Assembly: GCA_025055455.1 (NCBI GenBank)
Contig: JANWXD010000005.1
Span: 62,001 to 126,000 of the forward strand
Length of the DNA stretch: 64,000 bases
Origin: Bryobacteraceae bacterium
GTDB taxonomy: Bacteria; Acidobacteriota; Terriglobia; Bryobacterales; Bryobacteraceae
Reading direction: 5' to 3'
The translations under genes were made by a program, and so were the position numbers. The notes under the pieces were generated by a model that searched no databases, was not told the origin of the DNA, and worked only from the letters and a program-made list of their open reading frames with translations. Positions within the stretch are counted from its first letter, which is position 1; every line of letters starts with the position of its first letter. Positions 23,041 through 27,762 of this stretch are shown piece by piece.

Positions 23041-25068
23041 TCACGGAGCCCGCATGACGAAATCCCAAACCTCTGCCGCTCGGCGCACGACCGCATTTAC
23101 ATCTTGCTCGAGCAGGAGCCCATCGGATGCAAGCTGGCGGGCTGCGGCGGCGACCCGCTCCAGATACGCCTCGCGGTTGGGATACCGCTCTTCGACGGAG
23201 GGACGGGGATCCCCATTTTTGAGCCGCTCGGCCTTCGTCCGCGCGAAAGGCAGAAACGAGCCCGCCATGCTGTATAGCTCCTCGGGCGCCCCGAGCGAGG
23301 GGTGGCGGAAATTCCATCCCGTGTAGGTGGCCAAAGGCACAGCGACGTCCGGCAGGCGGATGCCAGCGATCTCGTTGCCATCCCCGTCGAGCTGGGCCAC
23401 GAAAACGGGATACGGTTTCCCCAACTTCGGCGGCTCCAGAGACACGATGCCTCGCGTGGCGAACTCGGGTCCGTAATCCACCCGCCAGGCGCGGTGCAAC
23501 CGCTTTGGGAAACGCACGCCGGGGATCTTCGGGAACCGCACCGCCGCCGCCTCGACCAACGTCCCATTCGACAGGCGCGGATAGCGCGACTCAGGGGGTG
23601 GCGTACCGTCGGTGACCCACCGGTCCAAAGCCACGAGCAGGGCCCGCATGACCCAGCGGAAATCATGGGGGTTGGTGAGGTGAACGGTCCCCGTCCGGGA
23701 AGGCGGAAATTCCGCCGGCCCGTGCTGGCTGCCTGCAAAGAAGTAAATGCGAGTTTCCGGCGCCACGGCCGCGTCGCGCCGGCCGTCCGGAGTCGTGTGG
23801 ATCAACGACGCAGCGCGCCCGTAGTATTCGTAAGAGCCGTTCGTGTAGAAAATTTTCGGCACCACGTTGACCGCCGCCGCACGGCGCAGCAGGCCGTCGC
23901 GGGCGCCCGTTTCCGGGTCGGTTTCCTCCAAGTCCGTGAACGGGAACAAATCCGTAGGGTAGAAGAAATTCAGGAACGGATGGCCGTCCCGCGAGGGCTG
24001 CGCGAACCGGTGATTGAAACTGCCGCGCCCCGCTCCCGCTACGTGGGCCCACACGGCGTCGAACACCCTACGCCCATCCTCGTCCGCGTTGAAGCCTTGG
24101 TAGAGAAACGTGCGCAGGAACCGGCCGCTCTGAGAGGCACCGAACGCGATGGCCCGCTTCAGATAGCGGCGCTGGTCGCCGAGCTGCGTGATGCCGGCGT
24201 TCGGGGTGCCGTACTTGAGGAAGGAGACAAAATCGCGCACGGCGGCCAGCCCCAGCCCCACGAGCACCGGATCTTGCGCCGTGTAAATCACCTCGTAGAT
24301 CCGCCCCGGCTCGAATGTCCCCGTGAGGAGGTACACATGCGACCGATCGGGGACGGGCCGCCCGTCGCGTTCACGGGCGAAGATCCAGTCGTTTCTCGAT
24401 AGGTAACGACGAGGCCCCTCCGGCCGATCGCGCACGCTCAGCCGCGCGGCTGCCTCCTCGGACTCCGCCGCCGGATAGGCGCGCATGGTGCGATCGGCCA
24501 GCGAGAAGCTGCGGACGGGCCGGTCGGGGATGTGCTCGGAACGCACCAGCCCCCGGATCGGCCGGTGGCCCTCGCGCGCGGTCGGCGCGTAGAGGCGCAT
24601 CAGGAGTGGCTCTTCTGGTACATCCCACTGCCAGCCGAGCCAGGCCAAGGTGAACCCGCGTTCGAGCAAGAAGCTGTCGCCGAAGTCTTCGGGTTCCCGC
24701 GGGTCGAGCGAGGCCGCGCGCTGGAACATCCCGAGCATCAACTTGCGGCCGCGATTGACGACCTCGAACAGCAACGTGCCGTTGCCGAGGGCGGGGTCGC
24801 GCGGCTTGAGCACATAGAGGTCGGCGGTGAATGCGACGAGCCCCTGGGCGTTGCGCGGCGCCAAGTCGATGTCGCAGAGGATGCGGTTGGCGGCGAGGGC
24901 CGGATCGACCGCGAAATGCACCTTCCCGATGATCCGTTCGTACGGACCCGCGCGTCCGAAGGGCCGACCGTCCAGGACGTCGCTGCGCTCGTCCACTTCG
25001 ATTCGAACCACGGCCGCCGGCAGGCCAGCCGTGCAGGCGAGTAAGACCGTCCAGGCGGCGCAGCGCAT
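23041..25068 (-). CDS. Secreted alpha/beta hydrolase domain protein (PF20091-like)
   Basis: Signal peptide MRCAAWTVLLACTAGLPAAV; GASQSGRFLR nucleophile elbow; long ORF. Confidence 0.78.
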   Translation of the reverse strand: MRCAAWTVLLACTAGLPAAVVRIEVDERSDVLDGRPFGRAGPYERIIGKVHFAVDPALAANRILCDIDLAPRNAQGLVAFTADLYVLKPRDPALGNGTLLFEVVNRGRKLMLGMFQRAASLDPREPEDFGDSFLLERGFTLAWLGWQWDVPEEPLLMRLYAPTAREGHRPIRGLVRSEHIPDRPVRSFSLADRTMRAYPAAESEEAAARLSVRDRPEGPRRYLSRNDWIFARERDGRPVPDRSHVYLLTGTFEPGRIYEVIYTAQDPVLVGLGLAAVRDFVSFLKYGTPNAGITQLGDQRRYLKRAIAFGASQSGRFLRTFLYQGFNADEDGRRVFDAVWAHVAGAGRGSFNHRFAQPSRDGHPFLNFFYPTDLFPFTDLEETDPETGARDGLLRRAAAVNVVPKIFYTNGSYEYYGRAASLIHTTPDGRRDAAVAPETRIYFFAGSQHGPAEFPPSRTGTVHLTNPHDFRWVMRALLVALDRWVTDGTPPPESRYPRLSNGTLVEAAAVRFPKIPGVRFPKRLHRAWRVDYGPEFATRGIVSLEPPKLGKPYPVFVAQLDGDGNEIAGIRLPDVAVPLATYTGWNFRHPSLGAPEELYSMAGSFLPFARTKAERLKNGDPRPSVEERYPNREAYLERVAAAARQLASDGLLLEQDVNAVVRRAAEVWDFVMRAP

Positions 25069-25185: not shown

Positions 25186-26334
25186 TCACTGAACCGTCTC
25201 GCGTTCTTCTTCCGTCTCCTCCTCGAGCGTGGCGCTGCAGCGCGCCACGACGTCTTGGCTCGTGATTGCGCCGACGTGCCAGAGCTCGGCGAACGCCCAG
25301 CGAGAACGCAAGCCCATGGGCATGACGAAATAGCCGAGATGGAACATCGGTGCGAGTGCTGAGGGAATGAAGCTGACGAACATCAGACCCGTGGTTTCAT
25401 CCCAACACCAGCTGCCGAGCTGATGGCAGCGGGTCCACTCCCAGCTTTCGGCCCCGTTCAAGTGGGCCGCCAGCGCCCCACCGAGATCACGATCGCAGTC
25501 GACTGGCAACCGCAGCACGAGCCATGCCCCACTGCCGATCACCGGGTGTTCGCAACCTTGCACCTGCAACAGAGCCGTCTGGTTGGCGGGGGCGAGGGCC
25601 GCCGGGATCGAGCCGAAAAAGGGCAGTTCCGCGGTCAGTCCATTGTCGGAGGCGAAAGCCAAGATCTCGGGACCGAGCATCGCCCGGGCCTGATAGAACT
25701 CCTCCGAGGAAAACTTGCACGGCTCCGTTCCCCCGGCACGCAAAGACTCGACCAGTTCTTCCATCTGTTTGGAAGCAGAGGTTCGGGATTTCCGAGCATG
25801 CGGGCGAGGCGATCGAGCGAGCTTGGCGCCGAGTTCGGCCGCGGCCGGAGACCAAGCGGCACTTTCGAAAAACTGCAGTACGGCGCACGTGGCCACCAGC
25901 AGCGAGCCCGGTCGGAGATTCTGGCTGTGGCAATACACCGTCGCGCTCAAGGAGATCGTCTTAGCCGCACGATCCCACACGAAGGCGTTCATGGTGGCCA
26001 GATGACTCGCCTCGCTGAGTAACGCAAGCGTCTTCGGTGTGTCGGGCACTTCGCAGAGCCAGTCCGTGGTAATCCGGACGCGGACCACATCCGCTCTGGC
26101 GTCTCGGCGCGGCGGCGCTGCGTCGACGTGCTGAGCAAAGTCCCCAGGCCACCATGTGAACCCGCGTTCCCGCAGGATGGCGTGCTTGCGATCCACGTGC
26201 AATCGGCGTCGCGTTTGCTCGATGACCTTGGGGCCGACATCGCCCTCGATGAACGGCGAGCCGAACAGCTGCTCGGCGAGGCTGGGCTCGCCGCCCAGCA
26301 ACGCCTGGACATCGGACAGAGATTCGTTTGTCAT
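25186..26334 (-). CDS. Orphan hypothetical protein with structured leader
   Basis: 382-aa intact ORF; AAGGAG Shine-Dalgarno before ATG 26334; no recognised family. Confidence 0.7.
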   Translation of the reverse strand: MTNESLSDVQALLGGEPSLAEQLFGSPFIEGDVGPKVIEQTRRRLHVDRKHAILRERGFTWWPGDFAQHVDAAPPRRDARADVVRVRITTDWLCEVPDTPKTLALLSEASHLATMNAFVWDRAAKTISLSATVYCHSQNLRPGSLLVATCAVLQFFESAAWSPAAAELGAKLARSPRPHARKSRTSASKQMEELVESLRAGGTEPCKFSSEEFYQARAMLGPEILAFASDNGLTAELPFFGSIPAALAPANQTALLQVQGCEHPVIGSGAWLVLRLPVDCDRDLGGALAAHLNGAESWEWTRCHQLGSWCWDETTGLMFVSFIPSALAPMFHLGYFVMPMGLRSRWAFAELWHVGAITSQDVVARCSATLEEETEEERETVQ

Positions 26335-26335
26335 C

Positions 26336-26366
26336 GGTGCATTCTCCTTTCGGTCAGAAATGCACC
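26336..26366 (-). promoter_or_regulatory. Hairpin with Shine-Dalgarno in apical loop
   Basis: GGTGCATT (minus 26366-26359) / AATGCACC (26343-26336), 15-nt loop containing AAGGAG, directly before ATG 26334. Confidence 0.55.
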
Positions 26367-26381
26367 AGGAGTCGAAAAGAA

Positions 26382-26409
26382 AAAGCCGCCTTAAACATCA
26401 GGCGGCTTT
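26382..26409 (-). terminator. Intrinsic terminator between structured leader and orphan gene
   Basis: Minus strand AAAGCCGCCT-GATGTTTA-AGGCGGCTTT followed by TTCTTTTC; perfect 10-bp stem with U-rich tail. Confidence 0.75.
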
Positions 26410-26450
26410 GCTTTCCGAGGAGACTTCCGTTCGGAACCTCTCGGTTCCGC

Positions 26451-26539
26451 GCATCGAGCAGCTTACGCCGCTCAAGGCACCGTGGCGTCCCCTGGCCCGG
26501 TTGCCGGACCCGAACTTATGTTCGGGTCACTCCTGATGC
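26451..26539 (-). ncRNA. Candidate riboswitch aptamer, S-box/SAM-clan-like four-way junction
   Basis: P1 GCATC/GATGC; P2 GACCCGAAC-ATAA-GTTCGGGTC; CCGGCAACC; P3 ACCGGGC/GCC-A-CGGT; GGTGCC; P4 GAGCGGC-GTAA-GCTGCTC. Confidence 0.6.
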
Positions 26540-26547
26540 TAATTACC

Positions 26548-26576
26548 AGAGTATCACAACGGAGGCAGACTTGCAA
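26548..26576 (-). promoter_or_regulatory. Putative promoter of the structured leader
   Basis: Minus strand TTGCAA (26576-26571)-N17-TACTCT (26553-26548); predicted start about 26541, just before P1. Confidence 0.5.
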
Positions 26577-26682
26577 GGCCGCTAGAAAATTCAGGTAGCA
26601 TCCGCGCACCGTTTGTTCAGGAACCGAGGCCGCCCGGTCGGCAAAAGACAGTCCACTCCACTAAGTGCTCGTCTGACGGCGC

Positions 26683-27762
26683 TCAGGCTAGCCGCAGACG
26701 GGCGGTGGCGGGAAGGGTCAGCGCGTCGAATTCGCCTCGTTCCAGCTTCGGAAAGGCGGCTGCGGCGATCATGGCGGCATTGTCCGTGGATAGCTGCGGC
26801 GAGGGGAAATACACCGGATAGGGGAGCGCCAGCTGGCGGGCCGCCGCCCGCAGGCCGGAGTTGCAGGCGACGCCACCGGAGACGATGAGCGCCCGCGCGT
26901 GAACCTGCTCGGCGGCCGCCGCAGCGCGACGAAGCAGCTCCTCGATGACCGTACGCTGAAAGGAGGCCAGTAAGTCGAGCGTGGTTTGCGGAGTCACCGC
27001 GAGCCAGTCCTCCAACGAAGGTCGCGGGTTGCGCCGCAGCAGTTGCCGCCGCGCCTCGATTTCAGAGGTCAGGTCCCGCTCACGCGTCCACCGCAGCACG
27101 GCCGTTTTTAGACCGCTGAAGCTGAAATCGAGCGGATTGCCCTTCATGCGGGCCAGGGTAAAGCGCACGGCATCGGGATTGCCGTGAGCGGCCAGTCGGT
27201 CGATCACCGGGCCGCCGGGGTACCCAAACCCGAGCAGCTTGGCCACCTTGTCATAGGCCTCGCCGGCGGCATCATCTCGAGTCTTGCCCAACAGGCGATA
27301 GCGGAATCCCGGGGTTACCTCGAATAGATGCGTATGCCCGCCGCTCACCACCAAGGCGAGCGCCGGCAGCTCGATGATTTCCCCCCGTTGCTTGGCCTCG
27401 AGGACCACCGCGTAGATGTGCCCCTCGATGTGGTTGACGCCGATGAACGGCCTCCGGCGGGCGAAACTAATCGCCTTGGCGAAGGTCAAGCCCACCAGCA
27501 GCGAGCCGACCAGCCCCGGGCCCGAGGTGGCCGCCACGGCCGTCAGGTCCGCATAGTCGCTCTGTGCTTCCTCCAATGCCGCGCGCACAACAGGTACGAT
27601 TGCGCGCACGTGTTCGCGGGAGGCCAACTCCGGCACGACGCCCCCGTACTTGCCGTGCGTGGCCAGTTGCGAAGCGACGACGGAGGAGCGCACGTGCACG
27701 CCGTCGTCCACCACGGCCGCCGCCGTTTCGTCGCAGGACGTCTCGATGCCCAGAATGCGCAA
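26683..27762 (-). CDS. tsaD: tRNA N6-adenosine threonylcarbamoyltransferase TsaD (TTG start)
   Basis: [39 protein letters not shown]. Confidence 0.97.

Follow-up and report, generated by a model that had tools for sequence, protein, structure and literature searches.

The question raised by this locus is whether the structured leader ahead of an uncharacterised acidobacterial gene is a known kind of riboswitch and, if so, which compound it would sense and how it would control the gene. The leader lies on the minus strand of a 64,000-nucleotide stretch of DNA from a Bryobacteraceae bacterium, hereafter called the window. A sequence-only reading had named it a candidate for the SAM clan that could be a divergent subclass, a ligand-switched variant, or an unrelated RNA, and every sequence quoted there was found in its place. 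The clan call was right, and Rfam cmscan sharpened it to SAM-I/IV (RF01725): the element scored 50.1 bits over the full model (1-99), above the cut-off of 41.1, with E = 3.2e-5 over the whole window and E = 2e-7 over a 401-base region. It is the best-scoring SAM-clan member in the window and the single RF01725 match both there and in the genome, and nothing exceeded the cut-off for SAM-I (S-box, RF00162) across the genome. With a score over the RF01725 cut-off, neither a divergent subclass nor an unrelated RNA describes the element; judged from its sequence, it is a true member of the known SAM-I/IV riboswitch family (Table 1).

Published descriptions define SAM-I/IV by a P2 without an internal loop or PK-1 and by the presence of P4, P5, and PK-2 (PMC2864571, PMC6890682), and all of these features are found in the window element. 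Its P2 consists of nine unbroken pairs capped by ATAA, with no internal loop and no PK-1, P1 to P4 form as previously drawn, and the GAGA-loop hairpin that had been set after an 89-nt element is present but is the P5 of the family. The earlier remark that no pseudoknot loop was apparent holds for PK-1, the absence of which is what SAM-I/IV leads one to expect, but PK-2 (GGGGAC/GTCTCC) had been missed. The ligand core is common to SAM-I (RF00162), SAM-IV, and the window element; in SAM-I, PK-1 is present and P2 contains a kink-turn, where the window element has a tetraloop and no PK-1, while SAM-IV lacks P4 and keeps PK-1 (PMC6890682), where the window element has a covarying P4 and no PK-1 loop.

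Table 1 Features of the leader and the regulated gene, in the order of transcription (positions in the window).
Feature	Position	Strand	Evidence
Promoter-like pair TTGCAA-N17-TACTCT	26548-26576 (TTGCAA 26571-26576, TACTCT 26548-26553)	-	Sequence
SAM-I/IV aptamer with P5 and pseudoknot	26416-26544	-	RF01725 match; covariation
Switch strand GCATCAGGAG, P1 5' side and J1/2	26530-26539	-	Complementarity to two downstream sites; covariation across leaders
P2 hairpin GACCCGAAC-ATAA-GTTCGGGTC, undivided	26507-26528	-	Covariation
P3 GGCAACCGGGC...GCCACGGTGCC, core CAACC / GGTGCC	26476-26505	-	cmscan alignment and alignment of 22 relatives
Pseudoknot 5' strand GGGGAC, P3 loop	26487-26492	-	91% of pseudoknot cells paired, 22 sequences
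P4 hairpin GAGCGGC-GTAA-GCTGCTC	26456-26473	-	Covariation
P1 3' strand GATGC (5' partner GCATC)	26451-26455	-	Alignment of 22 relatives
P5 hairpin, GAGA loop	26432-26449	-	cmscan alignment to family hairpin
Pseudoknot (PK-2) 3' strand GTCTCC, 3' of P5	26419-26424	-	Alignment of 22 sequences
Intrinsic terminator (gate 1), perfect stem and T-tract	26375-26409	-	Terminator scan
Target 1 CCTGATGT, 5' arm and loop of terminator	26395-26402	-	8 bp with switch strand
Target 2 CTCCTGGTGC, just upstream of gene	26362-26371	-	10 bp including one G-U with switch strand
Hairpin over Shine-Dalgarno and start region (gate 2)	26335-26367 (arms 26358-26367 / 26335-26344)	-	Covariation
Shine-Dalgarno AAAGGAG	26344-26350	-	Sequence
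Regulated gene, 382-aa protein, predicted tandem YbjN/type-III-chaperone-like fold	25186-26334	-	Homologues; AlphaFold2, Foldseek

As a second line of evidence, we aligned 22 related aptamers and compared their pairing with that of shuffled alignments. Standard pairs occupied 91.4% of the pair cells compared with 82.2% in shuffles, two-sided pair changes numbered 21 compared with 11.1, and the covariation score was 0.266 compared with 0.132 (0/500 shuffles for each measure). This strong signal supported the P1 to P4 four-way junction and was lost when the partners were slid out of register. Covariation was observed in P1, P2, P4, and P5, with P2 (9/10 pairs) and P4 (5/6) contributing the bulk of it; the inner pairs of P1 did not vary among the 22 aptamers, and the pseudoknot was also supported.

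The ligand core of the window element is letter-for-letter that of the metK-linked aptamers in the alignment. SAM-I numbering was used to map its positions to the contact residues given in PMC6890682. Many elements precede a protein that carries, by eye and without a profile, the MetK signature TSES-V-EGHPDK (for example L034, L053, L060, L062, L065, and L071), and another (L052) precedes a MetH-like protein. Because some elements with the same core precede metK, which encodes SAM synthetase, SAM is the likely ligand; the genome's own metK has no RF01725 element. A SAM-clan variant that has switched to a non-SAM compound has a precedent in the spermidine variants of SAM-I, which deviate at SAM-contacting positions of J1/2 and the P3 internal loop (PMC10853860), and one might point to a downstream gene with no visible methionine link and to a J1/2 that reads AGGA against AAGA in the Rfam consensus. 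However, the metK-preceding elements with the same conserved core are themselves AGGA, and no altered SAM-contacting bases of the spermidine type were found in the window core. We found no pointer to the ligand switch that had been suggested earlier and regard it as very improbable.

RF01725 was found in 33/396 genomes sampled across the phylum, and a subtype model (R1) was found in 15/238 genomes of the family and 24/400 of the class. A DNA pattern search returned 20 named loci that were mainly acidobacterial, the others coming from Deltaproteobacteria, Phycisphaerae, Verrucomicrobia, and Fimbriimonadales assemblies.

We then examined the sequences that flank the aptamer. The proposed promoter is present but weak, agreeing with the consensus at 7/12 positions and falling under the threshold of the promoter tool. 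The leaders as a set nevertheless tend to carry a promoter-like pair just 5' of P1 (mean best 8.2 compared with 6.1 in shuffled sequences, 0/200). The perfect-stem terminator with its U-tract was confirmed at 26382-26409, the sole terminator-like site in 26300-26700 (0.6 expected). Downstream of the aptamer, the switch strand GCATCAGGAG has two complementary sites, one in the terminator and one just before the gene. For target 2, 0/200 dinucleotide shuffles of the window's downstream region equalled the match to the switch strand. Across 50 distinct leaders, each strand scored 988 against its own downstream region compared with 853 +/- 19.5 for permuted strands, in a permutation that ignores kinship (0/5000). 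Changes on both sides were observed in L034 (CATCAAGAG/CTCTTGATG), L052 (CATCACGAG/CTCGTGATG), L045 and L056 (CATCCGGAG/CTCCGGGTG), and L036 (CATCAGGAA/TTCCTGGTG). In two leaders the altered strand was matched by both targets: CATCGGGAA by TCCCGATGT and TTCCTGATGC in L042, and CATTAGGAA by TTCCTGATGT and TTCTAGTGC in L109. Both targets are present in the 13 folded leaders, that is, the window and 12 relatives, and two further two-target leaders (L133 and L135) were recognised by eye.

The second target leads to the start of the gene. There, a hairpin has the 3' part of target 2 as its 5' arm, and its 3' arm fills the gap between the Shine-Dalgarno sequence and the start codon. Target 2 can be paired with the switch strand or the hairpin can form, but not both at once. 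Among the 25 leaders with a nameable target 2 and a start codon, the hairpin arms scored 541 with their own partners compared with 394 +/- 20 when permuted, kinship again being ignored (0/5000). Comparison among relatives establishes, at the level of sequence, the aptamer, its pseudoknot, the strand-target complementarity, and the start-region hairpin. The transcription-attenuation layout that had been proposed is supported, but it is half of the platform, the other half being the translational gate that follows; PK-2, the two targets of the switch strand, and the Shine-Dalgarno hairpin (26335-26367) were all absent from the sequence-only reading.

We propose that this SAM-I/IV riboswitch shuts off its gene at high SAM, with a single aptamer controlling two successive gates, a reading to which we give a probability of about 0.7. 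When SAM is bound, P1 would be closed and the switch strand occupied, so that the terminator forms, and any read-through RNA would also fold the hairpin over the Shine-Dalgarno and start region. When SAM is absent, the freed strand would first pair with CCTGATGT in the emerging terminator to cause antitermination. After passage of the polymerase it would then pair with CTCCTGGTGC, breaking the start-region hairpin and freeing the ribosome-binding site. The likely logic is that high SAM terminates and masks while low SAM allows read-through and unmasks. We infer the binding of SAM, the direction of control, and the order and relative weight of the two pairings. Because target 1 shares just two bases with the 5' arm of the terminator, the remainder lying in the loop, antitermination must work kinetically or sterically.

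Folding energies were calculated for 13 two-target leaders including the window (L133 and L135 were left out), with the pseudoknot, ligand, and Mg2+, all of which would favour P1, outside the calculation. With target 1 newly emerged, the antiterminator was favoured over the P1 fold by 4.5-13.5 kcal/mol in 13/13 leaders, and it was the minimum-energy fold of a 156-nt prefix of the window leader. With the whole terminator out, P1 together with the terminator was the more stable combination in most of these leaders, by 7.7 kcal/mol in the window. As target 2 emerged, its pairing was ahead by 8-18 kcal/mol in 13/13, and in the full leader it won in 12/13. Taken together, the energies would place the leader near the balance point of two states, where a switch is expected to sit.

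Many relatives carry one target alone, and in some leaders (for example L037, L039, L051, and L075) the comparison revealed no recognisable target. Since a single target is so common, one gate may suffice. If control were translational only, the switch strand would open the start-region hairpin and the terminator would be constitutive or a relic. The longer target 2 (10 bp compared with 8 bp), which is nearer to an equilibrium competition, the leaders with target 2 alone (L058, L065, L036, and L045), and the two-base overlap of target 1 with the terminator arm all speak for such a device, but in 12 relatives target 1 recurs at the equivalent position of the terminator, and in L042 and L109 it has changed in step with the switch strand; we consider the translational-only device unlikely. 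Still less probable is the converse, in which the decision falls at the terminator and the role of the second hairpin is limited to shaping translation: leaders with the terminator alone exist (L061, L038, and L053), but covariation marks both the second hairpin and its match to the switch strand as conserved. Chance resemblance or a decayed, non-functional copy might be suspected from a lone copy in the genome, ahead of a rare gene; with a score over the cut-off, a complete pseudoknot, an intact platform, and both targets intact, we give this next to no weight. Returning to the two-gate riboswitch, we think it on balance probable, though less so than the mechanism itself, that several families of the phylum have kept one SAM-controlled strand with two target copies, in the terminator and in the start-codon hairpin. 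SAM would then determine how much mRNA is made and, in a reversible second step, how far existing mRNA is translated, here for a gene family without a known SAM link.

The product of the regulated gene matched no Pfam, NCBIfam, or PADLOC family, in agreement with the earlier statement that the downstream gene has no recognisable methionine or SAM link. Its homologues are about 30% identical and occur in few genomes. One of them, from another family of the phylum (G285), has immediately before it a SAM-I/IV element of 50.4 bits with both targets recognisable, and after it a SAM-I element and a MoxR AAA+ gene; directly upstream of the homologues in G055, G598, G596, G534, and L072, no SAM-I/IV element was detected. 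An AlphaFold2 model reached pLDDT 82 from 7 sequences (59 from 3), and the top Foldseek matches were mostly to the YbjN/type-III-secretion-chaperone fold (probability up to 0.98, E 0.014 at best). From the order of the secondary-structure elements, the fold looks to be present twice in the model. Our guess is a chaperone-like or regulatory partner protein, although such a predicted fold says little on function. Plasmids gave no match to the protein or leader and viral contigs no exact match to the pattern, so, at the sensitivity of these searches, nothing indicated that phages or plasmids carry the locus. A defence reading, in which phage enzymes deplete SAM and thereby switch the gene on, had been prompted by a weak PADLOC mads_8 match of a homologue's MoxR neighbour and was rejected as unsupported. 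On the same strand, 117 bases downstream of the regulated gene, lies an alpha/beta hydrolase gene (23041-25068; PF20091, 144 bits).

Other genes were also observed behind SAM riboswitches. SAM-I or SAM-I/IV elements, at times two in tandem, precede a MoxR AAA+ gene in several phyla (L133 589-4296, L129 6127-9769, L058 799-2512, and L018, L021, L022, L059, L066, L087-L090, and L095), and behind the MoxR gene there are often a small gene and a vWA/metallopeptidase-like gene; a pairing of "SAM riboswitch" with MoxR was not found in the literature searched. Zinc-ribbon-like proteins stand directly behind the riboswitch in L029, L031, L063, L072, L073, L101, and L109, with metK next in L072, and the two examined (L029 and L072) had no Pfam family. 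A small protein with an HHLWRNGRWW-like motif (L036, L045, L046, L048, L054, and L056) showed weak similarity, under the cut-off, to DUF6538/Arm-DNA-binding, and metK comes next in L045, L048, and L054. A RadC-like JAB gene (PF04002) in L135 (1233-1921) lies behind a SAM-I/IV element that has both targets, and SAM-I/IV elements in L035, L041, and L043 precede what appears by eye to be a threonine-aldolase-type PLP enzyme-like protein.

With the described SAM-I/IV elements (RF01725; PMC2864571), which in this phylum often precede metK, the window element shares P1 to P5, the undivided P2, PK-2, and the core; it differs in the unknown family of its downstream gene and in a platform with two targets for one strand. 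The bi-mechanism tandem SAM-II/SAM-V riboswitches (PMC9481103) likewise let one ligand act on a terminator and then on a ribosome-binding site, but through two aptamers with a platform each, whereas here one aptamer would serve both gates. In dual expression platforms (Barrick and Breaker 2007, PMC2258182), a single aptamer also affects transcription and translation, but the ribosome-binding site lies within the terminator hairpin, in contrast to the two separate hairpins and two copies of one target in the window. One aptamer strand with two target copies was not found described in the literature searched, coverage of which was partial, and a prior description may exist; the aptamer family is already known, while the single-aptamer, two-gate platform is apparently undescribed.

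If this reading is true, a duplicated target lets one strand of one aptamer run both gates, an arrangement that is simple, testable, and could be copied in synthetic biology. The riboswitch family would moreover tag uncharacterised genes as SAM-responsive, among them those for the chaperone-fold protein, the MoxR/vWA operon, and the zinc-ribbon proteins, and this tag would be a first handle on their function.
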